A DNA stretch of 50,192 nucleotides, from positions 1 through 50,192 of the forward strand of contig JABDDT010000015.1 in NCBI GenBank assembly GCA_013287475.1, read 5' to 3'. The notes under the pieces are model-generated. The model searched no databases. It had not been told where the DNA came from and was given only the letters and a program-made list of their open reading frames with translations. Source of the DNA: Bacteroidota bacterium. GTDB lineage: Bacteria > Bacteroidota > Bacteroidia > Chitinophagales > Chitinophagaceae. The position numbers and the translations under genes were made by a program. Below are positions 13,493 through 50,192 of this stretch, one piece after another (position 1 is the first letter of the stretch; every line of letters begins with the position of its first letter).

Positions 13493-13520
13493 TGTTAAGT
13501 TGTTAGGGGGTTATGAATAA

Positions 13521-14567: not shown

Positions 14568-14622
14568 ATTTCAGGTTTTATATTATTCGTGATCTTGATG
14601 ATCAGGTTAAAAAAATTTAAAA

Positions 14623-16111: not shown

Positions 16112-16127
16112 TTGGCACCCGGCTTGA
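16112..16127 (+). promoter_or_regulatory. Sigma-54 (-24/-12) promoter candidate
   Basis: TTGGCAC at 16112-16118, five bases, then TTGA at 16124-16127. The consensus is TTGGCAC-N5-TTGC, so the -24 element and spacing are perfect and one base of the -12 element differs. It lies 24 bases before the ATG at 16152, in front of an operon that encodes a sigma-54 activator. Confidence 0.6.
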
Positions 16128-16151
16128 AACCTATTGTGCAAACCGAGAAAT

Positions 16152-23481: not shown

Positions 23482-24751
23482 ATATATTTTGTTTGTTGCC
23501 ATTTTGCATATCGTTGCATTGTTATTATCCTATTTTATTTTCGATAAAAACAAGATCTTCTTCATTTTTTCTGAAGTATTCATCATTATATCATTAATCA
23601 TTTCGTGGCAACTATACAATGAACTGATTCATCCTATAGATTTATTAGTTCAGGGAGCTGATGCCATTAAGGACAGGGATTTCAATGTGAAATTCTTATC
23701 GACGGGGAAATATGAAATGGATGAATTGATTCAGGTATATAATCAAATGATGGACGAGTTAAGAAAGGAAAGGACAAAACAGGAGGAGCAGCATCTGTTT
23801 CTGGAAAAGCTGATTTATACATCGCCGACCGGTATTTTAATTTTGGACTTCAATGAAAATATTCATCAGGTTAATCCCAGGGCATTACAATTATTGGGTG
23901 TTGAAGAAAAAGATGTGCTTAAAAAGTCTGTGCACGAATTGTCTCATCCCATCATGCAACAGGTAAAACAATTGCAATCGGGCCATTCAAAAATGTTCAC
24001 GATGAATGGCGCTGTTTCGTATAAGTTACAGAAATCGCATTTTATTGACCGCGGTTTCCCGCGTCATTTTGTAATGATTGAAGAACTGACCGCAGAAATA
24101 CTTGAAGCAGAAAAAAAATCTTACGGGAAAGTGATCCGTATGATGGCACATGAAGTGAATAATACGATCGGCCCTGTTAATTCTATATTACAATTTACTT
24201 TACAGACGCGGCAACACAGTGATGAACTGAAGAATGCAATTCAAGTTGCCATAGAGCGCAACAACAACCTGAATTCTTTTATGCGAAATTTTGCTGACCT
24301 GGTGCGCATACCCATCCCTGTTAAAAGACCGGTTCATATCATCCCCTTATTGCAAAATGTGACCGACCTGATGCAATTGAAGGCCGGAGAAAAGGAAATA
24401 AATTTTCAATACGAAAATCAAAATGTAGCATTTGTTATCAATGCAGACATTCAGCAAATGGAGCAGGCATTAATTAATATTATCAAAAATGCTGTGGAAG
24501 CCATTGATGAGAAGGGAACGATCACTATCCTTACCCACGCTAATCCAAAACGTTTAATCATACGCGACAACGGCAAAGGGATTTCACCAGGGTTTGAAGA
24601 ACATCTGTTTTCTCCCTTCTATAGCACTAAAAAAGACGGACAGGGTGTAGGTTTAACCGTAATTAGAGAAATATTGTTCAACCATGGATTTGATTTTTCT
24701 CTTAAGACGATTGTTCCGGGTGTAACTGAATTCAGAATTAATTTTGAATAG
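23462..24751 (+). CDS. Sensor histidine kinase of the efflux operon
   Basis: 429 residues from ATG 23462, which lies inside the last codons of the response-regulator gene (translational coupling). A second ATG follows directly and a GTG frame start lies at 23423. Order: two membrane helices (about 7-26 and 32-50) with almost no periplasmic loop, HAMP-like linker (50-105), PAS-like domain (about 112-210), a HisKA-like helix with phospho-acceptor His230 in MMAHEVNNTIGPV, and HATPase_c with INIIKNAVEAID (N box), IRDNGKGI (G1) and GQGVGLTVI (G2). The short loop suggests sensing of a signal within the membrane or cytoplasm. Its 3' end overlaps the convergent GH3 gene by 14 bases. Confidence 0.92.
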   Translation: MMKLRTKYILFVAILHIVALLLSYFIFDKNKIFFIFSEVFIIISLIISWQLYNELIHPIDLLVQGADAIKDRDFNVKFLSTGKYEMDELIQVYNQMMDELRKERTKQEEQHLFLEKLIYTSPTGILILDFNENIHQVNPRALQLLGVEEKDVLKKSVHELSHPIMQQVKQLQSGHSKMFTMNGAVSYKLQKSHFIDRGFPRHFVMIEELTAEILEAEKKSYGKVIRMMAHEVNNTIGPVNSILQFTLQTRQHSDELKNAIQVAIERNNNLNSFMRNFADLVRIPIPVKRPVHIIPLLQNVTDLMQLKAGEKEINFQYENQNVAFVINADIQQMEQALINIIKNAVEAIDEKGTITILTHANPKRLIIRDNGKGISPGFEEHLFSPFYSTKKDGQGVGLTVIREILFNHGFDFSLKTIVPGVTEFRINFE

Positions 24752-36025: not shown

Positions 36026-37216
36026 CTAATACTGGAATTCTGTTCTGTAGGGAAATCTCTCCTTATATAATTCTTTAACGCGACTGAGCAAAGCATTCCT
36101 TAACCCATCCACATTCGAACGCTCGGTGGCCGACATAAACACACAGACAGACTGGGTTTCACCCTCCCATCTTTCTTTGAGTTCCTTCAATAATTCTTCC
36201 TTCGTACTTTCTTCCAGCCAGGCATCAAAGTTTAATTCTTCATACCTGTCCATCTTATTGAAAACATAAATCACTGGTTTATCAAAGGCATTGATTTCCT
36301 GAAGTGTTTTGTTCACAACACCTAACTGTTCTTCATATCTTGGATGGGATATATCTACCACATGTAATAAAAGATCCGACTCCCTGACTTCGTCCAATTT
36401 GCTTTTGAAGCTCTCGACAAGGTGATGCGGCAGTTTTCTGATAAATCCTACCGTATCGCTCATCAGAAAAGGCATATTCTCATACACCAACTTTCTTGTT
36501 GTCGTATCGAGGGTTGCGAATAGTTTATTCTCTGCAAATACATCACTCTTGCTTAATAAATTCATCAGGGTCGATTTGCCCACATTAGTATATCCCACGA
36601 GGGCTACCCTTACAAGTTCACCCCTTTCCTTACGTTGGGTCTGAGCCTGTTTATCAATTTCCCTGAGTTTTTTTCTCAGGAGGGTAATTTTATCGCGAAC
36701 TATACGACGGTCAGTTTCAATTTCCGTTTCCCCGGGACCTCTTGTACCAATACCGCCTCCCAATCTTTCCAAATGCTTCCACATCCCTCTCAGCCTGGGC
36801 AGTAAATATTGGTATTGAGCCAGTTCAACCTGCAGCCTCGCCTGTGCTGTTTTGGCTCTTCTTGCAAAAATGTCCAGGATGAGATCCGACCTGTCGATGG
36901 TTTTCGTGTCGAGAATTTTTTCAATATTGGTGATCTGTGAACCGGATAGTTCATCATCAAAAATCACAACACGGATGTCTTTTCCCTGAACATAAGACTT
37001 GATCTCTTCCAGTTTACCCTTGCCGATAAAGGTTTTACTGTCGGGGTGCGCCAGTTTCTGAACGAATTTACGGACGGTTTTAGCCCCGGCGGTCTCAGCC
37101 AGAAAGGCAAGTTCATCCAGGTATTCATTTACCTGTTGCTCGGTCTGATCCTGTTGCATCACAGCCACTAAAACAGCCTTTTCCTCCGGCTGCATGATAT
37201 GTCGTTCTAAGGCCAA
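36026..37216 (-). CDS. hflX: Ribosome-associated GTPase HflX
   Basis: 396 residues. An N-terminal GTP-binding-like subdomain (about 12-105) contains SKTFIGKGKLEEIK. The long helical linker includes LPRLRGMWKHLERLGGGIGTRGPGETEIETDRR, the strongly conserved HflX block near 139-171. The G domain follows, with G1 GYTNVGKST at 208-216, G3 DTVG, G4 NKMD and G5 SATE. HflX splits or rescues stalled ribosomes, often in stress. Full length is normal. The gene stands alone, with 111 bases of repeat-containing DNA before it. Confidence 0.95.
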   Translation of the reverse strand: MALERHIMQPEEKAVLVAVMQQDQTEQQVNEYLDELAFLAETAGAKTVRKFVQKLAHPDSKTFIGKGKLEEIKSYVQGKDIRVVIFDDELSGSQITNIEKILDTKTIDRSDLILDIFARRAKTAQARLQVELAQYQYLLPRLRGMWKHLERLGGGIGTRGPGETEIETDRRIVRDKITLLRKKLREIDKQAQTQRKERGELVRVALVGYTNVGKSTLMNLLSKSDVFAENKLFATLDTTTRKLVYENMPFLMSDTVGFIRKLPHHLVESFKSKLDEVRESDLLLHVVDISHPRYEEQLGVVNKTLQEINAFDKPVIYVFNKMDRYEELNFDAWLEESTKEELLKELKERWEGETQSVCVFMSATERSNVDGLRNALLSRVKELYKERFPYRTEFQY

Positions 37217-37262
37217 TTCGGTGTAATTTGTTTAAAGATAAGAATGATATGATTGGGCCGTT

Positions 37263-37324
37263 AGCGGTTGGCGGTTGGCGGTCGATCAAATGGCTCGTTA
37301 CGCGTTAAGCGTTAAGCGTTGGGC
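37263..37324. repeat. Heptamer tandem arrays (GTTGGCG and GTTAAGC units)
   Basis: AGCGGTT-GGCGGTT-GGCGGTC at 37263-37283 (two exact GTTGGCG units at 37267-37280) and GTTACGC-GTTAAGC-GTTAAGC-GTTGGGC at 37297-37324, in the hflX upstream spacer. Confidence 0.7.
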
Positions 37325-37327
37325 CTC

Positions 37328-38071
37328 CTAAAGTCCGCTTAAAACAAGGCCGATGGAAAAAGGATTGACGGTTGGTCCGGCCCCATTGATGATCAAAGGA
37401 GTCAACTGCAATTGTGCAAAGACCCCGATCCAGCCATAATTAACACGGGCAGTGCCGACGATGCGGCCGCCGTTAAAGTATCTTTTGGAGCTTTGTTTTT
37501 CTATGAAAGAGTTTTGCAGCTGGCCTGCTGCGTTTAAAAGATCCTTCCCCTTGGTATATGCACTGAGCAGTACGCCCGCTTTAAATCCAAGGGCAACCTT
37601 CCAGCTTTTATTGGTATTCTCGGGATGAAATGCATACCGTAGTTCCAGGGGCAGTTCCAGGTTCGTGAGAACCAGTTTATACTTCTTGAAATGGTCTGTA
37701 GTTGAAGTATTTGGAAAAGCCAGTGTCTGATTTCCTTGTGCTGCTACCAGCACTTCGGTCTGAGCGAAGAAGATATTGCTGGCGTCAACTCCGATTCCAG
37801 CGCCTACGCTGAAATGCGGGTCGCCTTTAAATGGAAAGTCATACATGAAATAAAAGGCGAAACCCCGGGAAAAGCCGGAAGTATTCATCGTATCGGTTTT
37901 ACCTATCCAGTTGTCATAACTGAATTCAATCATAAAATGATCGTTTGCCCGGTTCGCAAGGTTAAGCGATGCATAAGTAACTTTTTTCTTCCCGTCTTTC
38001 GTAGTGTCGGCTTGTGCAAAAACAGCATGACACAAAAATATCAGCAATGCCATGCTAACGAACTTCTTCAT
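37328..38071 (-). CDS. Predicted outer-membrane beta-barrel protein
   Basis: 247 residues with signal peptide MKKFVSMALLIFLCHAVFAQ. The mature part has alternating strands rich in Phe, Tyr and Gly: HFMIEFSYDNWIG, GFAFYFMYDFPFKG, HFSVGAGIGVDASNIFF, LELPLELRYAF, WKVALGFKAGVLLSAY, IGVFAQLQLTPLI and a closing PFSIGLVLSGL. This fits a 10-12-strand outer-membrane barrel. No specific family recognised. It is solitary: a tRNA lies upstream and heptamer repeats and hflX lie downstream. Confidence 0.75.
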   Translation of the reverse strand: MKKFVSMALLIFLCHAVFAQADTTKDGKKKVTYASLNLANRANDHFMIEFSYDNWIGKTDTMNTSGFSRGFAFYFMYDFPFKGDPHFSVGAGIGVDASNIFFAQTEVLVAAQGNQTLAFPNTSTTDHFKKYKLVLTNLELPLELRYAFHPENTNKSWKVALGFKAGVLLSAYTKGKDLLNAAGQLQNSFIEKQSSKRYFNGGRIVGTARVNYGWIGVFAQLQLTPLIINGAGPTVNPFSIGLVLSGL

Positions 38072-38198
38072 AATTTCAATTGTGTGACAAATGTATTTGC
38101 CTTGAGGTTAATAAAAGGTTAAAGCAATCAATAAAAAAGGCTCCTAGCCATGGCCGTGAGCCTTTGAAATACAATGTGTTTTAAATAATGAACGTTTG

Positions 38199-38272
38199 TG
38201 GACCCTGCTGGGCTTGAACCAGCGACCCTCTGATTATGAGTCAGATGCTCTAACCAACTGAGCTAAGGGTCC
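38199..38272 (-). tRNA. tRNA with CAT anticodon, probably tRNA-Ile2 (lysidine type)
   Basis: 74 nt on the minus strand. Acceptor GGACCCT/AGGGTCC, D arm GCTCAGTTGGTTAGAGC, anticodon loop CTCATAA, T arm GCTGG-TTCAAGC-CCAGC, discriminator A, CCA not encoded. C4-G69, C5-G68 and A73 match the determinants known for the lysidine synthetase TilS in E. coli tRNA-Ile2, and the CTTAGCTCAGT start and GGTCGCTGG stretch resemble it more than elongator tRNA-Met. Isotype remains a prediction. Confidence 0.8.
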
Positions 38273-38430
38273 CGCCTTTTCAGGCAGCTGCAAAAATATA
38301 GCTTTCGGTGTCACGATTAAAATATTCTGTATCCTGATCATTTAAATGCAGCAAATAATTACATAACATGGTCAATCAATATATTCAGTTAATTCGGTAA
38401 CTTGTCTCCTCCCTGCCAAAACTGTTTTAA

Positions 38431-39024
38431 ATGCCATCGATTGCAGCCTCACGAATAAAATATCTGCAAACCAGGATCAGCCGGTTTAACGATCAACTTG
38501 CTTATAAGGAATTATTTACCGGTTTTTATTCTTCCCTGATCCAGTTTGTAACAGGAATTATTAAATCACGACAATCAGCCGAAGAAATCGTTTCCGATTT
38601 GTTTATGAAGATCTGGGAGAAAAGGGAAACGCTGGAAGAGATTCAAAATCTCCGCGTGTATTGCTTTGTATCTGCACGTCACCTGAGTATCAATCAGCTT
38701 GAAAAACAGAAAAGGCAGCATCATGCAGATATTGAAGATTATAAAACCAAACTCATTCATCCGGCTCCGGACCCTGAGGAATGTATGATCAGCGCTGAAA
38801 TGATGCGCCGCATTCATAATGTTGTAGAAGAATTACCCCCGCGCTGCAAACTTTCTTTCAAGCTTGTAAAGGAATATGGTTTCAAATACAGGGAAGCAGC
38901 AGAAATACTTCAGGTTTCTGAAAAAACCATCGAGAATCAACTGGCTATTGCGCTTAAAAAAATAAGTAACTCAATCCATTTCGATATCGGCCGCAGCATT
39001 CCGGTCATTGCGGGTTATCATTAA
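38431..39024 (+). CDS. ECF sigma-70 factor of the SusCD locus
   Basis: 197 residues, the size of the Bacteroidota 'RNA polymerase sigma-70 factor' (FecI-like) group. Region 2 is QSAEEIVSDLFMKIWEKRETL and region 4 is LPPRCKLSFKLVKEYGFKYREAAEILQVSEKTIENQLAIALKKI. It is followed by a FecR-type anti-sigma gene and then a SusC gene with an N-terminal STN domain, the standard trans-envelope signalling set. It presumably activates the susC operon when the transporter binds its glycan. The 176-base spacer before fecR contains octamer repeats. Confidence 0.93.
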   Translation: MPSIAASRIKYLQTRISRFNDQLAYKELFTGFYSSLIQFVTGIIKSRQSAEEIVSDLFMKIWEKRETLEEIQNLRVYCFVSARHLSINQLEKQKRQHHADIEDYKTKLIHPAPDPEECMISAEMMRRIHNVVEELPPRCKLSFKLVKEYGFKYREAAEILQVSEKTIENQLAIALKKISNSIHFDIGRSIPVIAGYH

Positions 39025-39072
39025 AGATTTATTTTCACGTGGTTCATTAAACGCAGTTTAGTGGGCATTCCC

Positions 39073-39134
39073 CCCGCCTTCGCTTGCTACGGCGGGCAAA
39101 GTACTCCCACACTCCCATACTCCCATACTCCCAT
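39073..39134. repeat. CCCGCC hairpin and ACTCCCAT octamer array
   Basis: CCCGCC (39073-39078) and GGCGGG (39091-39096) form an inverted repeat with a 12-base loop. Four tandem octamers follow: ACTCCCAC at 39103, then ACTCCCAT at 39111, 39119 and 39127. Confidence 0.75.
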
Positions 39135-39200
39135 ACTTTCTTCCCTTTGCTTTGGGGGTAAACGCGAATTTACCTGTCCTATCTCCATCTACCTTCCTGC

Positions 39201-40343
39201 ATGGATAACGATCACATATGGAATCTAATCGCTAAAAAGCTGGCTGGCGAAGCCTCTTCAGGTGAATTGAAGGAATTGGAAACAATCCTGCGCAGAGATC
39301 CCGACCTGCATTATTCCCTGGAAGCATTGCACGATATGTGGAAAAAGAAATCTGAACAAAAACCTGAACAGTCGGAAATAGCTTTTCAAAAGCATATGGA
39401 TCGAATGTATTCCAAAGGGATCGACATGGGTTCAATGGAAAATAGTTTATCCATCGATGAATTTCCTGAAACTCCACATCGTTTCATGAACTGGAAAACA
39501 CTTGCATTTACCATTGCAGGATTTTTCCTGATCACGCTTGGATATTATTTTTACAGTTACCATAATCCGTCTGTTGTTTTTCAAAAACCGGTCTGGGAAG
39601 TTGTAACACGTAACGGATCCAAAACAAATCTCCTGCTTCCGGATGGAACCACCGTCTGGCTAAATGCCGGCAGCAGTCTTACCTACGATTCATTATACGG
39701 AAACAAATTGAGAGAAGTAACGCTGAGCGGTGAAGCGTATTTTGATGTAGTGAAGAACCCGAACAAACCTTTCATTATTCATACTGGCAAAATAAATATC
39801 AAAGTACTGGGAACAGTTTTTAATATAAAATCGTATCCGGGAGAAAAAACGATTGAGGCCAGTCTCATCAGGGGAAGTATTGAAGTAACTTTCCCTTCAC
39901 TGTCTGCAAAAAAAATTATTCTCAAACCCAACCAGAAACTTATTATAGATAAAACAGAAACGATTTCAAACGTCAGTATCAATAAAGTCGCCACCGCACA
40001 AATACCATTCATCAGTATACAACATCTTATCAGATACGGATCCGACAGTGCCATTGAAGAAACTGGCTGGATGCAAAACAGATTATATTTTAATGATATG
40101 TCATTCGAGGAACTGCTGAAGAATATGGAAAGAAAGTACGGAGTTTCCTTTCATGTGGCAGACAGCTCCCTGGATACGATTCATTTTACCGGAAGTTTTA
40201 AGGATGAAACAGTAACGCAAGCCCTGGATGCACTGCGTTTAACAGCGGAAAAGTCGATCGCAGATTTTATTTATGAAATCAAAGGCAACCAGGTCTTTAT
40301 TTATAATAGTATTAAAGGTGTTCAATCAATTCAGCCAAAATGA
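39201..40343 (+). CDS. FecR family anti-sigma factor
   Basis: 380 residues. The N-terminal cytoplasmic part (about 1-95) would bind the sigma factor. One membrane helix lies at about 98-115 (LAFTIAGFFLITLGYYFY). The periplasmic FecR domain follows with WEVVTRNGSKTNLLLPDGTTVWLNAGSSLTYD, VTLSGEAYFDVVKNPNKPFIIHT and IKVLGTVFNIKSYPG, all classic blocks. A C-terminal STN-like domain (about 290-375, LYFNDMSFEELLKNMERKYG) probably contacts the transporter. The stop overlaps the SusC start by four bases, so the two are coupled. Confidence 0.95.
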   Translation: MDNDHIWNLIAKKLAGEASSGELKELETILRRDPDLHYSLEALHDMWKKKSEQKPEQSEIAFQKHMDRMYSKGIDMGSMENSLSIDEFPETPHRFMNWKTLAFTIAGFFLITLGYYFYSYHNPSVVFQKPVWEVVTRNGSKTNLLLPDGTTVWLNAGSSLTYDSLYGNKLREVTLSGEAYFDVVKNPNKPFIIHTGKINIKVLGTVFNIKSYPGEKTIEASLIRGSIEVTFPSLSAKKIILKPNQKLIIDKTETISNVSINKVATAQIPFISIQHLIRYGSDSAIEETGWMQNRLYFNDMSFEELLKNMERKYGVSFHVADSSLDTIHFTGSFKDETVTQALDALRLTAEKSIADFIYEIKGNQVFIYNSIKGVQSIQPK

Positions 40344-43300
40344 AAATCTCATCATTTATGAAATGTAGTTTCCTGCTGGTCTTTATTGCACTGCTTCGGT
40401 TTACTGCAAAGGCGTCCGGACAGCCTCTCGTTTCTATACACATGAAAAATGCAGAGATCAGCCAGGTTTTTTCTACACTTGAAAAAGAAAGCGGTTATCA
40501 TTTTTTATTCAACAGCCGCCTTGTAGGGATACATAAAATAGTTGATGTTGATGCAGACAACGCAGACATCAGTGAGGTGCTGAAAAGCATTTTCACCGGA
40601 ACCAATCTTCAGTACAAAATGCTGGACAATAAACTGATTGTAATAAGTTCGACCGAAGCGGATCAGGATAAAATCATTACCGGTAAAGTAACGAATGAAA
40701 ATAACGAACCTCTTTCCGGTGTCTCGATAATAATAAAAGGAAGAACGACAGGGACCACTACAGATGCCAATGGAAGTTTCACCCTTTCTGTACCTGATAA
40801 TGCATCTTTGATCATTTCATATGTAGGTTATACAACACAGGAATTTCCAGCAACAGGTGAAATGAACATTAAAATGGTACCATCCTCCAAAGTAATGGAT
40901 CAGGTTGTAGTTGTTGGTTATGGATCCCAACGTAAAAAAGATATAACAGGTTCAGTTGCAACAGTTGGTGGCCCTGAAATGGTTAAGCAGCCGGTTCTCA
41001 CAGCAACACAGGCAATTCAGGGAAAGGTTGCTGGTGTACAGATTATCAGTAGTGGTGCTCCAGGAAGTTCACCACAGGTTAGGATCAGAGGAACTAGTAC
41101 CGCTTTGGGAGGCACGGCTGTACTTTATGTAGTAGATGGTGTTCTCACAGATGATATAAGCAATATAAATACCGGCGACATCGTTGATATGAGTATACTA
41201 AAAGACGCTTCTGCCGCTGCAATTTATGGTTCAAGAGGAGCAAATGGAGTAATGATCATTACTACCAAGAAAGGTGTCGTTGGACAAATGAAAATAAATT
41301 ATAACGGGAATTTCGGTGTACGTACAGCTGCAAACCTGGTAAAAATGGCTAATGCAGCAGAATATGATAATTATTACCAGGCATCAACGGGACAGATCCC
41401 TCCCCCCTCTACATCATCAACTGATTGGTACAATACTATTTTAAGAAACGCATTCGAACAAAATCATAATATTTCCATATCAGGTGGAAGTGAAAAGGTC
41501 CTTTACTTTTTCAGCGCCAGTTATTATACGGATCAAGGAATAGTTGTAAATAATGATTATAAAAGATTTACAGTTCGATCAAATGATGAATTCAAAATCA
41601 GCAAAGAAGTACAATTTGGCGTTCAGGCTTCCTTTTCAACCAGCAACAATCAAAATGGATTTAATAATATTAATATAGATCCCAACGGAAATATAGGCTC
41701 CGCTTTTAATGATGCTTACCGCGCTGCACCAATTATTCCCAGCATTGTAAACGGGAAATATGGGAATACATCCACTTATCAGAATGTAGGCAATCCTCTG
41801 CTCGATTTAAGTGATAATAATGTACTAGTTACCGATAACCGTTTACAGGGTTCAGCTTATCTCAATGTCAGACCAGTAAGCTGGCTTACATTCAGATCAA
41901 GCATCGGGGGAGATTACGATAATTCACCAGCAAGAGCTTACAATTATCAATTTAATGCAGACAGTACAACTTTTCTGGTCGAAGGCGGAAATCAATACAA
42001 TACTCATAGCAGTTTGCAATCACAAAATTCTCAGAACTTCAAATGGGTCTGGGATAATATTTTAACGTTCTCTAAAACATATGGTGATCATTATGTCAGC
42101 CTGATGGTTGGTACGACGGCTGAAAAATTAAAATCAAGTTATTTATCGGCCTTTCGAAAAGATGTTCCTGCTGATCCAAACTTATGGTATATCGGTGTTG
42201 GAGATGCCAGTACTTCTCAAAACAACGGAGGCGGAGATGAGTGGGCAAGAAATTCCTACCTGGCCAGGCTGAACTACTCTTTTGAAGATAAATATTTATT
42301 AACCGGTACTATCCGTAGAGATGGCAGCTCCCGTTTCCCTGTACAAAACAGATGGGGAAATTTCCCTTCAGTTGGAGTAGGCTGGGTAATTAATAAGGAA
42401 AGTTTTATGGATAATCAGAAAATCTTCAATTATTTGAAATTACGAGGCAGCTGGGGAGAAGTGGGGAATGATCAGATTCCAACAGATGCTTTCACGACAA
42501 CCGTAGCCCTAAATTTACCGTATGCCTTTGGTGGAAGTAGTCAGGCGGCTACAAATGGAGCCCAGATTAATCAGATTAAAGACCCAAATATCACCTGGGA
42601 AGTTACACAGGAATATGACGGGGCAATCGAATTTGCCACATTAGATTCCCGTTTATCAGGTGAAGTGGATTATTATAATAAGAAAGTAAAAAATGCATTG
42701 ATCTTTGTAAATATTCCTTCTACAGTGGGAGATATAGATGCAAAGGTATTAACGAATGCCGCAACTATTCAAAATATGGGATGGGAAGTTCAATTGAATT
42801 GGAAGGATAAAATAAATAAAAATTTATCCTATCATATTGGAGCCAATGCAACTTTTAATACAAATACTGTATTGGGTCTGAATGGAGGTCAGCCTTTACT
42901 GGATGCTGGTATCGGGGCTCAGCAGGGATTTATTACACGTACGGATAACGGACATCCGGTTGGTAGTTTTTATGTACTCAAGATGATCGGTATATTTCAG
43001 TCTGACGCAGAAGTTGCGAATTATGTAAATAAAAGCGGCAAAGTGATTCAACCCAATGCCCATGCAGGTGATATTAAATATCAGGATACAAATGGAGATG
43101 GGCAAATAGATGATAATGACCGTGTTTTCGCAGGGGCTTATCAGCCAAAAGTATATTTCGGTTTAAATGCCGGATTGAATTATAAAAACTGGGATTTTAC
43201 TTTTGATATTTATGGAAACCTCGGTAACCAGGTGTATAACGGTAAAAGAGCCATCCGAGTAGCCGGAACTGATAATATTGAGTCTGCATTAGTTTACAAC

Positions 43301-43621
43301 CGATGGTCATCCATAAACCCTTCGCAAACCCAACCTTCAGCTAACAGTGGAAATCAGTTAGCATCTACTTATTTTGTTGAATCAGGCTCTTTTATAAGGA
43401 TAAATAATCTGACTATTGGATATACTTTTTCATCGCCTTCATTGGAAAAACTGAAAATTGTAAGCCTTCGCGTATTTGCAACGGGCCAGAATTTGTACAC
43501 CTGGAAAAAATATAGCGGTTTTACTTCAGAATTGCCGGGAACTCCAACTGATTCGGGCATTGAATTGAACGCTTATCCAACAACCAGAACCATTACCGGA
43601 GGAATTTATTTAGGTTTTTAA
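40340..43621 (+). CDS. SusC/RagA family TonB-linked outer-membrane transporter with STN domain
   Basis: 1093 residues. Signal peptide (about 1-28), then a secretin/TonB STN domain (about 32-110), which marks SusC proteins that signal to FecR. A carboxypeptidase-regulatory-like domain follows (about 113-178, ITGKVTNENNEPLSGVSIII). The plug begins VVVVGYGSQRKKDITGSVATV and contains the family box KDASAAAIYGSRGANGVMIITT. A 22-strand barrel makes up the rest and ends TRTITGGIYLGF. It should import an oligosaccharide together with the SusD lipoprotein encoded nine bases downstream. The three GH144 enzymes further on suggest beta-1,2-linked glucans as substrate (inference). Confidence 0.95.
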   Translation: MKISSFMKCSFLLVFIALLRFTAKASGQPLVSIHMKNAEISQVFSTLEKESGYHFLFNSRLVGIHKIVDVDADNADISEVLKSIFTGTNLQYKMLDNKLIVISSTEADQDKIITGKVTNENNEPLSGVSIIIKGRTTGTTTDANGSFTLSVPDNASLIISYVGYTTQEFPATGEMNIKMVPSSKVMDQVVVVGYGSQRKKDITGSVATVGGPEMVKQPVLTATQAIQGKVAGVQIISSGAPGSSPQVRIRGTSTALGGTAVLYVVDGVLTDDISNINTGDIVDMSILKDASAAAIYGSRGANGVMIITTKKGVVGQMKINYNGNFGVRTAANLVKMANAAEYDNYYQASTGQIPPPSTSSTDWYNTILRNAFEQNHNISISGGSEKVLYFFSASYYTDQGIVVNNDYKRFTVRSNDEFKISKEVQFGVQASFSTSNNQNGFNNINIDPNGNIGSAFNDAYRAAPIIPSIVNGKYGNTSTYQNVGNPLLDLSDNNVLVTDNRLQGSAYLNVRPVSWLTFRSSIGGDYDNSPARAYNYQFNADSTTFLVEGGNQYNTHSSLQSQNSQNFKWVWDNILTFSKTYGDHYVSLMVGTTAEKLKSSYLSAFRKDVPADPNLWYIGVGDASTSQNNGGGDEWARNSYLARLNYSFEDKYLLTGTIRRDGSSRFPVQNRWGNFPSVGVGWVINKESFMDNQKIFNYLKLRGSWGEVGNDQIPTDAFTTTVALNLPYAFGGSSQAATNGAQINQIKDPNITWEVTQEYDGAIEFATLDSRLSGEVDYYNKKVKNALIFVNIPSTVGDIDAKVLTNAATIQNMGWEVQLNWKDKINKNLSYHIGANATFNTNTVLGLNGGQPLLDAGIGAQQGFITRTDNGHPVGSFYVLKMIGIFQSDAEVANYVNKSGKVIQPNAHAGDIKYQDTNGDGQIDDNDRVFAGAYQPKVYFGLNAGLNYKNWDFTFDIYGNLGNQVYNGKRAIRVAGTDNIESALVYNRWSSINPSQTQPSANSGNQLASTYFVESGSFIRINNLTIGYTFSSPSLEKLKIVSLRVFATGQNLYTWKKYSGFTSELPGTPTDSGIELNAYPTTRTITGGIYLGF

Positions 43622-43630
43622 AATTAAAAT

Positions 43631-45151
43631 ATGAAAAAGCTAATCATATATATTAACCTTATTTTTTTTGGCGCCCCCTTTTTATCATGCAGCAAAAACT
43701 TTCTCAATGTCCCTGTACAGGGGGGCGAAACAACTTCAGCAGATCCTGCTCTTGCCCAAAAATTAGTAACAGGAGTTTATAACAGTCTGATGCAGGGAGA
43801 CTCATGGGGAAATGGCGACGTGCATGGATTTGCATTTCTTTCTGTCACTAATATCATGTCGGATGATGCAGATAAAGGAAGTTATGCCGGAGATCAGCAG
43901 TCAGTAGTGACGCCATTAGATGACTTCACACTTACGTCAACCAACGAATTTGCCCTAACGCTTTGGAGCGGTCATTATAATAGTATCGGTGCAGCTAACC
44001 AGGCATTGAAGGCATTGGCAACTGCGGCAATAGACAGTAATTCGAAAATTGAACTTACGGCAGAAGTGCGTTTTATCCGTGGTTATCTATATTTCAATCT
44101 CGTTAGAATGTTTGGAGGCGTTCCATTAATTCTACGTGTTCCCAAAGATGCCAATGATGCAAATACGGATCCTGTTTTTCAAACGCGTGCAACAGATACT
44201 GCTGTATACAATACCATAATTACTGATTTGCAATATGCGGTTGATCATTTACCATTAAGAGCTGCAGCTGGCGTTGGACATGCAACAAAAGGATCGGCTG
44301 AAGGCATTCTTGCTAAGGTATACATGTATCAAAAACAATGGCAGAAATGTTTTGCTCTTACAAATGACATCATTGCTTCCGGTCAATATCAGTTATTAAG
44401 CGATTATTCTCTTATATGGCGTCAGGCTTCAGAAAACAGTTCTGAATCTCTTTTTGAAATTGAAACAGGCGCTTTTAATAATGCTAATCTTCAAGTTGCT
44501 AATTATACCGTTTGTCAGGGTCCCCGTGTAGGAGGCGCAGGAGGGTGGAATGATCTTGGATGGGGGTTTGATGATCCCAGCTTATCATTAATCAATTCTT
44601 ATGAACCAGGGGATGTTAGAAAAAATGCAACAATAATATTTATCGATAATTCTGGTACACATACAGGGACGATTTTATGGGATGGTTTCCGTATTCCAAG
44701 TTCGGATTCCGTTCAGAATTTATATTATAATTATAAAGCATATACCAGTTCAACAAAAGAAACCTATGCAGATCCGATAGACAAAGACAAGCCAAAAAAT
44801 ATTAGAATTCTCCGCTATGCAGATGTTCTGTTAATGAATGCGGAAGCAGCTTTACAACCCGAAGTAAATCAACCTGGAGTAGCAGTGGCAGATATTGCAC
44901 CAATACGTCAGCGTGCACAACTCCCTCCAAAAGGAAGCGTAACTATAGCTGACGTATGGCAGGAGCGCCATGTTGAACTGGCTATGGAACACGACAGGTT
45001 TTGGGATATCGTCAGACAGGGAAGAGCGGCACAGATTATGCATGCAGTAGGTAAATCCAATTTTGTAGCTGGTAAAAATGAATTACTGCCCATTCCCAGC
45101 TCTCAAATTCAACTAAGTGGAAATAAACTTACCCAAAATAACGGTTATTAA
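43631..45151 (+). CDS. RagB/SusD family nutrient-uptake lipoprotein
   Basis: 506 residues with a lipoprotein signal and lipid Cys20 (FLSC). An early ETTSADPALAQKLVTGVYNSL helix, the TPR-like helices (AEVRFIRGYLYFNLVRMFGGVPLIL is the best-known SusD block) and the C-terminal WQERHVELAMEHDRFWDIVRQGRA plus LLPIPSSQIQLSGNKLTQNNGY are all present. This is the outer-membrane glycan-binding lid of the SusC transporter. Aromatic binding-site residues differ between SusDs, so the ligand cannot be read directly. It follows SusC closely, in one operon. Confidence 0.95.
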   Translation: MKKLIIYINLIFFGAPFLSCSKNFLNVPVQGGETTSADPALAQKLVTGVYNSLMQGDSWGNGDVHGFAFLSVTNIMSDDADKGSYAGDQQSVVTPLDDFTLTSTNEFALTLWSGHYNSIGAANQALKALATAAIDSNSKIELTAEVRFIRGYLYFNLVRMFGGVPLILRVPKDANDANTDPVFQTRATDTAVYNTIITDLQYAVDHLPLRAAAGVGHATKGSAEGILAKVYMYQKQWQKCFALTNDIIASGQYQLLSDYSLIWRQASENSSESLFEIETGAFNNANLQVANYTVCQGPRVGGAGGWNDLGWGFDDPSLSLINSYEPGDVRKNATIIFIDNSGTHTGTILWDGFRIPSSDSVQNLYYNYKAYTSSTKETYADPIDKDKPKNIRILRYADVLLMNAEAALQPEVNQPGVAVADIAPIRQRAQLPPKGSVTIADVWQERHVELAMEHDRFWDIVRQGRAAQIMHAVGKSNFVAGKNELLPIPSSQIQLSGNKLTQNNGY

Positions 45152-45237
45152 TTACCAGATATAAACTCTCATCTCAATTACACAATATGCACAAACAAGA
45201 ATCATTAAAATTTTCACAAAAATCAAATTCTAGAATT

Positions 45238-46161
45238 ATGAAACGTTCAAAAAGCAAGCTGGTAATTCTTACTGTTACCGCTCTAATCGGAATTATTATT
45301 TTTAATGCATGCTCAAAAAGCAGCACGCCTCCATTGCCTCCCATTAACGGATATAATACGTCGAACGATGTTGCCAAAACAAATCTGCTGGCGCACTGGA
45401 CTTTTGACGGTACCAATAATGAAACTATATCAAGTACCGCACCTACTGTGACTACCGGGGCATCGTTTACAGCAGGCGTAAAGGGACAGGCATTGTCTCT
45501 TAACAATGGTTACCTTGTATTTCCTACAATTGCTGCATTAAGCTCAGCTAATGCCATTGGGAGTGTCACTGTAAGCTGCTGGGTAAATACTGATAACCGC
45601 GACTCACTTGCCAGTAGTGTATTTTGTCTCACAAAAACCTTAACTGCACAAACAGACTGGAACGACGGCCCTTTAAACGTCTATCTGGAAACAGGTAAAA
45701 ATCATTTGACTTATGATGATACCCTTGTTTTGCATTCCGCTTTTGCAACTTATCCGGGAGGAGTACGCGAAGGTGGAGATAATATCAATGATTATGGAGT
45801 ACGTGGTACAGATTTCCAAACTGTTCACGGTACAAAAAAATGGGTTCATTATGTAATGAGATATGATGGAGTCGGTTCATTTATTGATATCTATGCAGAT
45901 GGTGTTCGTGTTTCAAATAACAATTTCCGTTTCAGATCAACTGGTACACCTGCGGTAGGCCTTGGTCTGATTATAAGCCCTGTTCCAACTCAGGTAGTAA
46001 TAGGTGGTTGGCCAAACGCTACAACAGGTTATACAAATTCAGCGGTTCAGTCCTGGCAGGGTTTGTATGTAGGATCTATTGATGAAATCCGTGTTTATAA
46101 TGCAGCATTAACCGATCTTGAAATCGGTTCTTTGTATCAACTTGAATTAGCAGGTAGATAA
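45238..46161 (+). CDS. LamG/concanavalin-like surface lipoprotein, candidate glycan-binding protein
   Basis: 307 residues from ATG 45238, which gives a compact lipoprotein signal (KLVILTVTALIGIIIFNAC). An upstream ATG at 45187 would add 17 polar residues and is less likely. After a Ser/Pro-rich tether, residues about 45-300 form a LamG/jelly-roll fold: LLAHWTFDGTNNETIS at the start and VGSIDEIRVYNAALTDLEIGSLYQ at the end are diagnostic. It lies third behind SusC and SusD, where loci usually encode a surface glycan-binding protein, so this is the likely role (inference). A strong terminator hairpin follows 10 bases after the stop. Confidence 0.82.
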   Translation: MKRSKSKLVILTVTALIGIIIFNACSKSSTPPLPPINGYNTSNDVAKTNLLAHWTFDGTNNETISSTAPTVTTGASFTAGVKGQALSLNNGYLVFPTIAALSSANAIGSVTVSCWVNTDNRDSLASSVFCLTKTLTAQTDWNDGPLNVYLETGKNHLTYDDTLVLHSAFATYPGGVREGGDNINDYGVRGTDFQTVHGTKKWVHYVMRYDGVGSFIDIYADGVRVSNNNFRFRSTGTPAVGLGLIISPVPTQVVIGGWPNATTGYTNSAVQSWQGLYVGSIDEIRVYNAALTDLEIGSLYQLELAGR

Positions 46162-46171
46162 GTATATATTG

Positions 46172-46215
46172 GGGAACAAACGTTATTATTAATAACGTTT
46201 GTTCCCTATTTTTTT
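46172..46215 (+). terminator. Strong intrinsic terminator inside the SusCD/GH144 locus
   Basis: Perfect 17-bp arms (46172-46188 and 46190-46206) begin GGGAAC and end GTTCCC, followed by TATTTTTTT at 46207-46215. It lies 10 bases past the LamG stop and 22 bases before the TTG start of the first GH144 gene, leaving little room for a promoter between. Confidence 0.85.
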
Positions 46216-46236
46216 GAAGTCGTTTAATGATTCCAT

Positions 46237-47892
46237 TTGAAAAAGATCTTTATTGCAGGAATTGCCTTTCTCTATTTATCCTGCACTAAATCGAGTGGCC
46301 CGCCTCTAAATACCACTCCGTTTAATGTCAAGTCTTTCATGGTTAATGGAGACTATCAAGGAAACATATATACTAACTTGAAAAATATCAATCTCAGATT
46401 TATATTTACAGGAGGTACTATTGATAAAAATTCGGTAAATGCAAGCGTTTCACTAAAAACGTTTGGTGGCCTGAGTGTTCCACTGAATTATTCATACGAT
46501 AATGACAGCACCCTGAATGTAGTTCCAAATGGAAACCTGACACCACTTACCGGCTATCGTTTTGAAATATCTACTGCATTTAAGTCACAACAAAATACTG
46601 CATTGCAGAATCCTGTAGCTATCAACCTTTATACTACCATCGATTCTACCGACAAGTTTCCTCAAATCACCGACAGTGCATTGCTGGACCTTGTTGAAAA
46701 GCAAACCTTTAAATATTTTTATGACTTTGGTCATCCGGTTTCCGGAATGGCCCGCGAACGTAATTCAGATGCTACAACCGTAACCACCGGTGGCAGCGGA
46801 TTTGGCGTAATGGCGCTCCTGGTTGGCATCCAAAGAAATTTTATTACGAGGGCACAAGGTCTTGCCAGAGTAGATACTATCGTCAATTTCTTAACCAATA
46901 AGGCACAAAGATATCACGGCGCATTTCCGCACTGGATGAATGGAACAACAGGTGCCACTATTCCCTTTAGTCAGCAGGATGATGGCGCCGACCTCGTGGA
47001 AACTTCTTATATGATGCAGGGCCTTCTTACTGCACGACAGTTTTTTAATACCAATGACCCCACCGAAGTAACACTTCGTAACAATATAAATAATTTATGG
47101 AACGCCGTTGAATGGAACTGGTTCCGTCAAAACGGACAAAATGTATTGTACTGGCACTGGAGTCCCAATTATAATTTCTCAACAAATCAACAGATCAGTG
47201 GTTGGGATGAAGCCATGATTGTTTATGCATTGGCTGCGTCATCTACTGTGGATTCCAACCGGATTCCTAAAATTGTATATGACAATGGCTGGGCATTGAA
47301 TGGTGCTATAAAAAATGGTAAATCGTATTACGGCCTTACACTTCCATTGGGACCTGATTTTGGAGGACCGCTGTTTTTTGCCCACTATTCTTTCCTTGGA
47401 ATCAATCCGAATAATCTGAGTGACGCTTATGCAGATTACTGGGAGCAGGATCAGAATCATTCACTCATTAACTACAATTTCTGTGTAGTAAATCCTCATA
47501 ACTATAACGGCTATAGCAGCAATTGCTGGGGACTCACCGCAAGCGATGAGCAGGGCGGATATTCGGCACACTCACCAACAAATGACGATGGAGTCATCTC
47601 TCCCACGGCAGCCATCTCTTCTCTTCCATATGCGCCAACACAATCACTCAATGCCCTTCACTTTTTTTACTACAAACTGGGAGACAAAATATGGGGGCAA
47701 TACGGATTTGTAGATGCATTCAATCTTACAAATGTATGGTTTGCAAATTCTTACCTTGCAATAGATCAGGGTCCTGAAATTATCATGATCGAAAATTATC
47801 GGTCGGGTCTTTTATGGAACCTCTTCATGAGTTGCCCTGAAGTAAAAACGGGGATGAAGTCGCTTGGATTTCAGAGCCCGAATCTGAATTAA
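46237..47892 (+). CDS. GH144 (glucoamylase-family, PF10091) lipoprotein with N-terminal Ig-like domain
   Basis: 551 residues from a TTG start (TTG AAA AAG), giving MKKIFIAGIAFLYLSC with lipid Cys16; no ATG is suitably placed. A Big_5-like Ig domain (about 27-128) precedes the (alpha/alpha)6 catalytic domain from about 145: DLVEKQTFKYFYDFGHPVSG, ARERNSD, TTGGSGFGVMALLVG, AFPHWMNGTTG, QQDDGADLVETSYMMQGLL, LYWHWSPN, SNCWGLTASD and IIMIENYRSGLLWNLFM. Such proteins are labelled glucoamylase family; CAZy GH144 members tested act on beta-1,2-glucan (endo-glucanase from Chitinophaga, sophorohydrolase from Parabacteroides). The lipid anchor suggests a surface or outer-membrane enzyme that makes first cuts. 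Confidence 0.88.
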   Translation: MKKIFIAGIAFLYLSCTKSSGPPLNTTPFNVKSFMVNGDYQGNIYTNLKNINLRFIFTGGTIDKNSVNASVSLKTFGGLSVPLNYSYDNDSTLNVVPNGNLTPLTGYRFEISTAFKSQQNTALQNPVAINLYTTIDSTDKFPQITDSALLDLVEKQTFKYFYDFGHPVSGMARERNSDATTVTTGGSGFGVMALLVGIQRNFITRAQGLARVDTIVNFLTNKAQRYHGAFPHWMNGTTGATIPFSQQDDGADLVETSYMMQGLLTARQFFNTNDPTEVTLRNNINNLWNAVEWNWFRQNGQNVLYWHWSPNYNFSTNQQISGWDEAMIVYALAASSTVDSNRIPKIVYDNGWALNGAIKNGKSYYGLTLPLGPDFGGPLFFAHYSFLGINPNNLSDAYADYWEQDQNHSLINYNFCVVNPHNYNGYSSNCWGLTASDEQGGYSAHSPTNDDGVISPTAAISSLPYAPTQSLNALHFFYYKLGDKIWGQYGFVDAFNLTNVWFANSYLAIDQGPEIIMIENYRSGLLWNLFMSCPEVKTGMKSLGFQSPNLN

Positions 47893-47898
47893 AAGGTT

Positions 47899-49287
47899 AT
47901 GTCTAATTCTTTGTTTAAAAAAGGAATTTTTAGCTGGCTTCTACTTTCGCTTTCTATATTTTCAATTGCGCAGGTTGCGACACCCGTTGAAAAAAACAAG
48001 TCTAACATTTCATCGGTACACAGTCAACTGTCAACCGCCAACCGTCAACCGATTTCCGACAGTGCACTCCTTGATCTCGTTCAAAAACAAACATTCAAAT
48101 ATTTCTGGGACTTCTCCCATCCTGTCAGCGGCCTTGCACGGGAACGATCCAATGACACACCGGCATATGGAAATGAAGTCGTCACTATCGGCGGCAGCGG
48201 ATTCGGAATCATGGCTATAATAGTAGCTACAGATCGTCACTGGATCACACGTGATACTGCCGTGAAGCATCTCCTGAAAGAAGTAAATTTTTTATTGAAG
48301 GCCAACAGCTATCACGGTATTTTCCCACACTGGCTCAACGGGGCGACAGGCATTACGATTCCTTTCTCAAGGAAGGATGATGGCGCTGACATCGTCGAGA
48401 CTTCCTATCTATTTGAAGGCCTTCTTTGTGCCCGGCAGTATTTCAATCAGCAGAACCCACTGGAAAATCAATTGAGGAATAAAATTAAATGGCTTTGGAC
48501 CGGAGCAGAATGGAACTGGCACCAGCGTGACCAGGGAAATTCCTTATACTGGCACTGGAGTCCCAATAATGGTTGGGCTATGAATTTCGAAATCCGTGGC
48601 TGGAATGAATGTCTTATTACATATGTACTTGGCGCTTCTTCCCCAACCTATCCGATTACAGAAAATGTATATCATAAATGCTGGGCCGTAAGTAATCATT
48701 TTATCAATGGAAGAACTTATTATGGAATTAAACTTCCCCTCGGATTTGATTATGGTGGTCCCCTTTTCTTTGCACATTATAGTTTCATGGGACTGGATCC
48801 GCACGGACTAAAAGATAGATATGCCGATTACTGGGAGCAGAATTATAATCATACCCTGATCAATTACAAACACTGCGTTATTAATCCCAATCATTTTAAG
48901 GGATATGGAGAAAACTGCTGGGGTCTCACGGCCAGCGATACCTACGACGGCTACAATGCACAGTCACCCACCAACGATTTCGGTACCATCACTCCGTCTG
49001 CTGCTCTTTCTTCCTTCCCCTATACTCCCGAATATTCTATGAAGGCGCTGAAACATTTTTATTACGACCTGGGAGATAAGATATGGGGAAACTATGGTTT
49101 CGTTGATGCCTTCAATGAAAGCAAAAACTGGTATGCAGAAAGTTACCTGGCCATTGACGAAGGTCCTATCGTTGTGATGATTGAAAACTACCGCTCGGGC
49201 CTGTTGTGGAAACTCTTCATGAGTTCACCAGAAATACAAAGTGGATTGGTTAAATTAGGGTATGAAAGTCAATGGCTGAAAAAATAG
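47899..49287 (+). CDS. GH144 (glucoamylase-family) enzyme, secreted form without extra domain
   Basis: 462 residues from ATG 47899, six bases after the preceding stop. The signal peptide (about 1-25, FSIAQ) has no lipid Cys, so the product is probably periplasmic. Residues about 42-52 (HSQLSTANRQP) are encoded by four heptamer microrepeats (48022-48049). The catalytic domain starts at SDSALLDLVQKQTFKYFWDFSHPVSG and matches the first paralogue block by block (KDDGADIVETSYLFEGLL, LYWHWSPNNGW, GPLFFAHYSFMGLDP, ENCWGLTASDTYDGY). Role by family: hydrolysis of beta-1,2-glucan or sophoro-oligosaccharides; endo or exo action cannot be decided from sequence. Confidence 0.88.
   Translation: MSNSLFKKGIFSWLLLSLSIFSIAQVATPVEKNKSNISSVHSQLSTANRQPISDSALLDLVQKQTFKYFWDFSHPVSGLARERSNDTPAYGNEVVTIGGSGFGIMAIIVATDRHWITRDTAVKHLLKEVNFLLKANSYHGIFPHWLNGATGITIPFSRKDDGADIVETSYLFEGLLCARQYFNQQNPLENQLRNKIKWLWTGAEWNWHQRDQGNSLYWHWSPNNGWAMNFEIRGWNECLITYVLGASSPTYPITENVYHKCWAVSNHFINGRTYYGIKLPLGFDYGGPLFFAHYSFMGLDPHGLKDRYADYWEQNYNHTLINYKHCVINPNHFKGYGENCWGLTASDTYDGYNAQSPTNDFGTITPSAALSSFPYTPEYSMKALKHFYYDLGDKIWGNYGFVDAFNESKNWYAESYLAIDEGPIVVMIENYRSGLLWKLFMSSPEIQSGLVKLGYESQWLKK
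48022..48049 (+). repeat. Four heptamer microrepeats inside a GH144 coding sequence
   Basis: AGTCAAC, TGTCAAC, CGCCAAC, CGTCAAC in tandem, 28 bases, encoding part of the linker between signal peptide and catalytic domain. CGCCAAC is the reverse complement of the GTTGGCG unit found upstream of hflX. Confidence 0.7.
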
Positions 49288-49292
49288 AGGAC

Positions 49293-50192
49293 GTGAAAAT
49301 AAAACTGCTACAAACTGCTTTATTTCTTTTCTCAATCATAACTGCGTTTCCTCAAAAAAAAAATCCGCAGGTTTCGCTACCAAATAAAGATTCTATTATC
49401 CCTGTCGGTATCATTAAAAATATTTCAGATTCAGTATTACTGGATATTGTACAGCGTCAGACATTCCGGTTTTTCTGGCAATTCGCACATCCGGTAAGCG
49501 GTATGGCAAGGGAAAGAGATAATACGGTTAAAGCAGAATACTATTGGGATTATATCAATGAAGCGGATGATGAACCCAACCTGAGTAAAGGAACATTCGG
49601 ACCTGAAGCATGTGCGATGGGAGGAACAGGCTTCGGAATCATGGCAACTATTGTAGCAGTAAACCGCGGATGGATTGGCAGGGATACTGCTTTGAACCGC
49701 CTTATCAAGATTGCAGATTTTTTAATTAAAGCAAATTGCTACCACGGTATCTATCCGCATTTTATAAATGGAACAACCGGTAAAGCAATTCCTTTCGACA
49801 GAACAGATGATGGAGCCGACATCGTTGAAACATCTTACCTGATGATGGGCATGCTCGTAGCGAAAGAATATTTCAATGGAAACTCATTGCCTGAAAAGTA
49901 TTTTCAAAAAAGGGTAAACCAAATGTGGCAGGCAGCCAACTGGAACGCGCATGTCAGAAGTGATAATAAATTATACTGGCATTGGAGCCCCAACAATGGC
50001 TTTGATATGAATTTCCCTGTTTTCGGTTATGACGAAGCATTGATTACTTATATCATTGCTGCTTCTTCCCACTCACATCCCATTTCAAAAGAAGTATATA
50101 CAAATACCTGGGTAAATAATGGAGGTTGGAAAAATGGTAAAGCCTATTACGGGAATGTGTTGCCATTGGGAAACTATGATAAAGGCGGCCCG
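49293..50192 (+). CDS. GH144 (glucoamylase-family) enzyme, third paralogue, 3' end outside window
   Basis: I translated 300 codons from GTG 49293 to the window edge without a stop. The start is MKIKLLQTALFLFSIITAFPQ, a signal peptide without lipid Cys; AGAGGA nine bases before the GTG is a fair ribosome-binding site, and the previous stop is five bases away. The catalytic domain begins SDSVLLDIVQRQTFRFFWQF and keeps HPVSGMARERDN, GGTGFGIMATIV, TDDGADIVETSYLMMGML and LYWHWSPNNGFDMNF. Compared with the other two paralogues there is an insertion of about 20 residues (EYYWDYINEADDEPNLSKGT) before the GGTGFG block. About 150 C-terminal residues should lie beyond the window. Confidence 0.85.
   Translation, partial: MKIKLLQTALFLFSIITAFPQKKNPQVSLPNKDSIIPVGIIKNISDSVLLDIVQRQTFRFFWQFAHPVSGMARERDNTVKAEYYWDYINEADDEPNLSKGTFGPEACAMGGTGFGIMATIVAVNRGWIGRDTALNRLIKIADFLIKANCYHGIYPHFINGTTGKAIPFDRTDDGADIVETSYLMMGMLVAKEYFNGNSLPEKYFQKRVNQMWQAANWNAHVRSDNKLYWHWSPNNGFDMNFPVFGYDEALITYIIAASSHSHPISKEVYTNTWVNNGGWKNGKAYYGNVLPLGNYDKGGP

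Follow-up and report, generated by a model that had tools for sequence, protein, structure and literature searches.

A soil Puia SusCD locus with three GH144 subfamilies and a terminator-like hairpin between its uptake and enzyme genes

The DNA analysed here (the window) is the entire contig C15, 50192 bases, of a metagenome-assembled genome (MAG; 3.16 Mb in 137 contigs, 74% complete) of a Puia species, a soil bacterium of the Chitinophagaceae. Its last part, from position 38431 to the contig end, holds a polysaccharide utilization locus (PUL), in which SusC and SusD homologues lie adjacent to each other together with a regulator and three carbohydrate-active enzyme genes of family GH144, every gene on the + strand. 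The first gene (38431..39024) encodes an extracytoplasmic function (ECF) sigma factor of the Bacteroidetes Sig70 subfamily (TIGR02985, 128 bits, over the cut-off; PF08281, PF04542), and is followed by those of a FecR anti-sigma factor (39201..40343; PF04773, PF16344), a SusC TonB-dependent transporter with an N-terminal STN signalling domain (40340..43621, overlapping the FecR gene by 4 bases; TIGR04056, 876 bits; PF07660, PF13715, PF07715), a SusD-like glycan-binding lipoprotein (43631..45151; PF07980, PF14322) and a LamG/concanavalin-fold lipoprotein with a lipobox-like N-terminus by eye, presumably a surface glycan-binding protein (45187..46161; PF13385, E 3e-8). A terminator-like hairpin (46170..46208, +), identified by a scan, by RNA folding and by the equivalent junction of relatives, marks the border between this uptake block and the enzyme block. 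Beyond it lie GH144-1 (46237..47892, TTG start; PF10091, E 7e-70), a lipoprotein with an N-terminal immunoglobulin-like domain (weak PF13205) ahead of the GH144 (alpha/alpha)6 domain, GH144-2 (47899..49287; PF10091, E 6e-80), which by its PDB matches and its place in the tree is of the same family and is presumed periplasmic, and GH144-3 (49272..50192), a member of an insert-bearing subfamily by PDB matches, insert and tree, of which the contig end leaves the first 307 residues (PF10091 over the part present, E 3e-7, 30.8 bits versus a cut-off of 27). GH144-3 overlaps GH144-2 by 16 bases, a GTG at 49293 being a possible alternative start. A preliminary description of this DNA had named the sigma factor, FecR, STN-SusC, SusD, LamG lipoprotein and three PF10091 genes, and profile matches find all of them, in that order; the hairpin is not part of that description. 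Since the same arrangement recurs in related genomes, it is not due to chance. The remainder of GH144-3 was not found on another contig of the MAG, which has only four PF10091 places. A scan of the window for Bacteroidetes-type promoters gave 5 matches versus 2.9 expected, all on the - strand, and the count of sigma-70-type promoters was not above that in shuffles.

Sequence, tree, fold and catalytic residues support the membership of all three enzymes in GH144. PF10091 scores above its cut-off in each of the three. In a sequence search of the PDB, 4GL3 is the best solved relative of GH144-1 and GH144-2, and CpSGL, the GH144 endo-beta-1,2-glucanase of Chitinophaga pinensis (5GZH/5GZK), comes next; E values of the two window enzymes run from about 6e-132 to 3e-185 over 4gl3, 5gzh, 5gzk, 3eu8 and 4qt9, and GH144-2 scores 620 bits with 4gl3 and 524 bits with CpSGL. 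The matches to CpSGL have E values of 8e-147 (GH144-1), 2e-156 (GH144-2) and 8e-62 (GH144-3, part), the partial PDB matches of GH144-3 being at 6e-68 and 8e-62. The CpSGL catalytic residues, whose roles are given in PMC12102758, align with identical residues in the window enzymes: D135, D139, E142 and E211 are conserved in 3/3. The clan-defining E211, F268 and Y330 (CpSGL numbering) are present in GH144-1 and GH144-2; only E211 of these precedes the contig end in GH144-3, where it is kept, and the remaining rows of the alignment (185/186) all have F268 and Y330. In the tree the window enzymes sit among 82 rows that include CpSGL, the exo-acting BDI_3064 of Parabacteroides distasonis (5Z06) and 4GL3, with a two-row XcSGL-type branch, also GH144, standing apart. 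Thus the earlier assignment of the trio to GH144 stands, none of the three being placed outside the family. An AlphaFold2 model of the Puia dinghuensis GH144-3 (predicted local distance difference test score, pLDDT, 88.6) best matches 4GL3, CpSGL, BDI_3064 and XcSGL, with other clan GH-S structures ranking after the GH144 structures. Likewise, the model of the window GH144-1 (pLDDT 86.7) has a beta-rich stretch at about residues 28-135 ahead of a barrel that matches the same structures, 4GL3, CpSGL, BDI_3064, XcSGL and clan GH-S, in Foldseek; the (alpha/alpha)6 barrel of GH144 is present.

The trio consists of three old, distinct subfamilies with intact catalytic residues. In the main tree (84 rows, insert columns excluded, covering part of the genus genomes) GH144-1 forms a clade of 25 rows with support 100/97, and GH144-2 and GH144-3 share a clade of 39 rows (99/99) in which GH144-3 is nested with 17 rows (100/100); the CpSGL clade has 12 rows (100/98) and that of the exo-enzyme BDI_3064 four (100/96). 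GH144-3 is set apart by an insert of about 20 residues. Among 192 aligned sequences the segment that carries it is exactly 48 residues long in 25/25 GH144-3 rows versus 22-32 residues in the other 167, and a single change accounts for the insert in a broader, quickly built tree of 139 rows. Four residues are specific to GH144-3 and none to GH144-1 or GH144-2 under the rule used; the W120F of GH144-3 is uninformative, as it is shared with BDI_3064 and XcSGL. All 23 proteins aligned for GH144-1 keep its lipobox Cys16; therefore GH144-1 is membrane-anchored, presumably at the surface. GH144-2 and GH144-3 have ordinary signal peptides by eye. A recent triplication of a single gene is rejected, as the tree shows three separate, well-supported subfamilies. 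We also rejected the reading of the trio as an endo-enzyme with a BDI_3064-type exo-enzyme, because none of the window enzymes falls in the BDI_3064 clade; GH144-1 has 551 and GH144-2 462 residues, versus 721 in an extra BDI_3064-type gene of the genus locus L054 and 712 in the chain of 5z06.

CpSGL resembles the window enzymes in fold and in D135/D139/E142/E211, with about half of its residues identical, yet belongs to a different GH144 clade. BDI_3064 shares the GH144 domain and catalytic residues, whereas it has a clade of its own and a much longer N-terminal region. The closest solved relative, BACUNI_03963 of Bacteroides uniformis (4GL3), lies within the GH144-2 clade; its entry title gives no function, and the extra insert is a feature of the window GH144-3 and not of BACUNI_03963. 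Further members turned up elsewhere. Locus L114 (9956-11368), from a Melioribacteraceae MAG, holds an insert-bearing GH144-3; in our trees no other member of that clade carries a label from outside Bacteroidota. GH144-2-type genes occur in Proteobacteria records (L115, L120, L121, L125-L127); in L121, from Methylocapsa aurea, the gene adjoins that of an SbmA/BacA-like ABC transporter and has a GH3 nearby. These genes look horizontally transferred. The fourth GH144 of the window's own genome (G000, C4:18678-19961; L006:9661-10974) is XcSGL-like and by eye without signal peptide, and no SusC- or SusD-sized neighbours were recognised in the 19 kb fetched around it.

The second place in the enzyme row is swappable. 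We assigned the GH144 genes of 33 genus genomes to types by best percent identity to four query proteins, fragments included, and find GH144-1 in 31, GH144-2 in 18, CpSGL-type in 11 and GH144-3 in 18. GH144-2 and CpSGL-type never occur together (0/33) and both are missing from 4/33: G005 and G016 have GH144-1 alone, and G006 and G030 no match at the thresholds used. An overlap of zero would have a chance of about 1e-6 if the two were independent, this and the Fisher value taking no account of relatedness. In 7/7 loci with a CpSGL-clade gene (L045-L049, L053, L054) it follows GH144-1, with one unrelated gene between the two in L046 and L053 and directly in the other five. When slot type is mapped onto a GH144-1 phylogeny built from 19 loci, 3 changes are required, of which well-supported branches force at least 2. 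An approximately unbiased (AU) test, carried out with an earlier tree already in view, rejects a single clade for slot type (6 CpSGL-type versus 13 others; p-AU 5e-45); it omits L054, whose GH144-1 is truncated, and the type of G003 in it comes from a different contig. Hence the slot has been refilled more than once. This exchange is the best evidence in our analysis for the role of GH144-2: given that its slot is interchangeable with that of an enzyme from the clade of CpSGL, a proven endo-beta-1,2-glucanase, GH144-2 is most likely the workhorse endo-enzyme. In G003, which is near the window by GH144-2 and HflX, the locus is split over contigs (L052, L056): the sigma factor gene is directly followed by GH144-2, GH43, GDSL and GH3, SusD, LamG and GH144-1 lie on another contig, and GH144-3 was not found.

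Between the LamG stop at 46161 and the TTG start of GH144-1 at 46237, the hairpin has an unbroken stem of 18 pairs (G-T allowed), a 3-base loop and a run of seven T, a G+C-containing stem-loop followed by a T run as in intrinsic terminators. The RNA of 46158-46236 folds at -27 kcal/mol (z -6.3), with 0/200 shuffles as good. We then asked where such elements lie in the window and in the fetched GH144 loci, counting strict hairpins of at least 8 pairs, at least 4 of them G-C, with a T tail (L062, a copy of L039, excluded; the 72 boundary junctions include related genomes). A strict hairpin follows the last binding-protein gene at 33/72 boundaries, as against 0/70 SusC-SusD, 0/46 SusD-LamG and 0/28 sigma/FecR junctions and 1/214 junctions inside the enzyme block; shuffling the 72 boundary segments gave a mean of 0.4. 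With gaps of at least 40 bases only, the counts are 30/57 boundaries versus 1/62 in the enzyme block, 0/25 at sigma/FecR, and 0/8 and 0/2 elsewhere. A threshold-free fold z below -3 is found at 39/72 boundaries (median -3.2) versus 0/28, 1/70, 3/46 and 3/75 at other junctions, the last covering 75 of the 214 in the enzyme block. Because the 33 hairpins form 19 sequence clusters, it is their position that is shared and not one inherited sequence; the gene right behind is that of a GH144, a cytochrome or an ASPIC protein, depending on the locus.

Is this junction confined to GH144 loci? We scored 69 SusD loci of three genomes, picked by SusD rank alone as 70 of 129 hits (10/10 from the own MAG, 30/58 from B. 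fragilis, 30/61 from P. dinghuensis; one reaches the end of its contig, L151/L152 and L154/L155 at the least appear to be near-duplicate pairs, and the window locus is included), taking as SusC any gene that ends just upstream. A hairpin follows SusD in 13/53 continuing operons, compared with 0/60 upstream junctions and 6/16 operon ends. The boundary hairpin therefore appears in some SusCD operons beyond GH144, and the signal is weaker than in the GH144 loci, perhaps given that a further binding gene often comes after SusD, as in the window. Expression of susCD above that of downstream genes is commonly seen, and the boundary hairpin is a simple possible reason why uptake proteins could outnumber enzymes of the same operon. 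The wider proposal, that SusCD operons often carry a leaky terminator where uptake genes give way to enzyme genes, a dial of uptake to enzyme that evolved repeatedly, its sequences being unrelated, and in this locus precedes a GH144 trio with a swappable second slot, is in our judgement evenly poised between being right and wrong. We found no description of such a hairpin in the literature searched, most subscription journals being outside the search, including the available text of PMC7366714, PMC11697453 and PMC10994844; priority for it is uncertain.

A somewhat doubtful alternative, and the one that survives best, is that the hairpin is not leaky, being either the full end of the uptake transcript, with a promoter of their own for the enzymes, or a 3' stabiliser or processing site of the RNA. 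An unbroken stem of 18 pairs with seven T looks strong, and hairpins at 3' ends can protect RNA from exonucleases. Against a separate promoter, the distance from the hairpin end to the first possible enzyme start has a median of 27 bases and is at most 80 in 30/32 cases (32/33 measurable), and TAnnTTTG, the Bacteroidetes -7 promoter motif, lies between the two in 0/32, which leaves little room for a promoter, with the reservation that first possible starts may precede the true ones and that a promoter could be placed inside or upstream of the hairpin.

What the contig end cuts off can be viewed in relatives. The named loci fetched are the best 80 of 588 relatives, their genes named by best BLAST hit to a reference set, with Pfam checked on representatives of GH3, GH43 and GDSL. 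The 18 loci of the genus, from 17 genomes, have GH3 in 16, GH43 in 15 and a GDSL hydrolase in 11; among the 58 of the best 80 loci with both SusC and SusD the figures are 31, 26 and 7, and 1/58 is without any GH144 call of at least 180 residues. The preliminary description had suggested looking for a GH3 gene beyond 50192, and in most genus relatives one is there. In L062, from the cultured strain Puia dinghuensis, the sequence runs from SusC to GH3. Behind the locus a common NusA N-terminus lies in L037, L038, L043, L052 and L054, Pfam naming rimP, nusA and infB in L052. In B. fragilis Q1F2 the genes follow one another as GH3, SusC, SusD, GH144 and GH43; the GH3 there shares 70% identity with the Puia-type one and matches 9urf, 5tf0 and 5xxl about equally, at 1351-1356 bits. 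We take 5xxl to be BT_3567. BT_3567 is described as a beta-1,2-glucan-associated GH3 (PMC12369401).

A GH43 protein with an F5/8C domain (L046:5166-6989, -) accompanies GH144 genes from Puia to B. fragilis and has only weak PDB matches. In L041 a single open reading frame (13354-16302) joins a Gfo/Idh/MocA oxidoreductase, with a Tat-like N-terminus by eye, to GH43 and F5/8C, a fusion which hints that oxidoreductase and GH43 act on the same group. Genus loci (L037-L049, L052-L056) also carry a multihaem cytochrome-like protein (9/18) and a large FG-GAP/ASPIC-UnbV protein (12/18), mostly between LamG and GH144-1 and unusual company for a PUL; the window has neither there.

Taken together, we think it likely that the locus is a beta-1,2-glucan PUL of Puia with staged uptake and digestion, a GH144 trio and a leaky hairpin. 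The relay of STN-SusC, FecR and ECF sigma factor would, judging from its domain set, sense the glycan and switch the locus on. Outside the cell the polymer would be bound and cut by SusD, the LamG protein and GH144-1, the lipoprotein at the surface; oligosaccharides would enter through SusC and be shortened in the periplasm by GH144-2 and GH144-3. Of these two, GH144-3, the one with the inserted loop, probably cuts at a different chain length or end. Digestion to glucose would be completed in relatives by a GH3 beta-glucosidase, and GH43 and GDSL proteins may strip side groups there; such genes should lie beyond 50192, where we expect the rest of GH144-3 to be followed by GDSL, GH3 and HAD genes and by rimP-nusA-infB. 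At the hairpin behind LamG many transcripts would probably end, and enzymes made by read-through would leave the uptake proteins in excess. Bacterial beta-1,2-glucans act in symbiosis, pathogenesis and osmoregulation (PMC12102758), and the locus shows how soil Bacteroidota appear equipped to eat them. Of interest above all is the insert-bearing GH144-3, a subfamily for which we found no published assay and whose expression should be easy.

Several observations weigh against this account. In the literature searched we found no assay of enzymes of this locus or of members of the GH144-1, -2 or -3 clades, and the closest structure, 4GL3, is titled merely putative glucoamylase. In the PDB the Puia GH3 matches 3U48 best and not 5XXL, and GH43 and GDSL would be superfluous for plain beta-1,2-glucan. 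A strict hairpin is absent at 39/72 boundaries, and terminator-like sites over 37000-50192 number 10 versus 12.1 in shuffles; since the region as a whole shows no excess, it is by its stem that 46170-46208 stands out. Neither the GH3 orthologue nor GH43 was found in the own MAG, in a search without positive control of a 74%-complete genome. However, the MAG also gave no match for NusA, whose gene adjoins the locus in relatives (likewise without positive control), so the missing GH3 and GH43 are most simply an assembly gap. Their true absence from the species was rejected on these grounds, the missing NusA and the incomplete genome, without being disproved.

The substrate is the second point on which readings differ. 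Beta-1,2-glucan, as the preliminary description had proposed for this SusCD locus, is still the best reading, but the GH43 and GDSL genes of relatives may mean a decorated or related glycan. That the target is such a beta-1,2-linked glycan, for instance a cyclic or osmoregulated glucan with substituents or a polymer containing beta-1,2-galactose, whose side groups GH43 and GDSL would strip first, we regard as unlikely. It would explain the frequency of GH43 with F5/8C and of GDSL in the genus and in the 58 SusCD loci, and it has parallels in a GH144-containing PUL with a GH35 beta-1,2-galactosidase (PMC11739564), an enzyme inactive on beta-1,2-glucooligosaccharides, and in marine GH144 PULs with an added sulfatase (PMC6499787). 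Yet L037, L050, L105 and L110 have GH144 and GH3 without GH43, and characterised GH144 enzymes act, in the available accounts, on beta-1,2-glucan or its oligosaccharides. Least probable is plain redundancy, three enzymes for dosage without division of labour, which is in keeping with identical catalytic residues in the trio and with just two GH144 matches in several genus genomes (e.g. G012, G021, G024, G028, G031) but not with subfamilies that are old and separately conserved in the 84-row tree, with the lipid anchor and N-terminal beta domain of GH144-1, or with a GH144-3 segment fixed at 48 residues.

A GH144 PUL is of a known kind and the beta-1,2-glucan reading of this one is likely; we did not find its subfamily structure, slot swapping or boundary hairpin described, nor any literature joining Puia and polysaccharide utilization. 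GH144 PULs are among the abundant ones in Bacteroidetes (PMC6499787), and beta-1,2-glucan has been inferred as their substrate in a study of fosmid PULs (PMC6550366); they share SusC/SusD and GH144 with the window, those of PMC6550366 GH3 too, but a tandem subfamily trio, swapping in slot two and a hairpin junction are not described in the available text of either paper. The SGL cluster of Ignavibacterium album, which serves beta-1,2-glucan (PMC8861115), likewise has several GH144 genes, namely two; unlike the window it centres on an ABC transporter together with a GH94 protein, and the available text mentions a TonB-dependent transporter only as possible.

Elsewhere in the window, 24738-27323 (-) encodes another GH3, with a chitobiase/Fn3-associated C-terminus and 29% identity to the PUL GH3 of G003, and 6617-8329 (+) a glucose/sorbosone dehydrogenase fused with cytochrome c.

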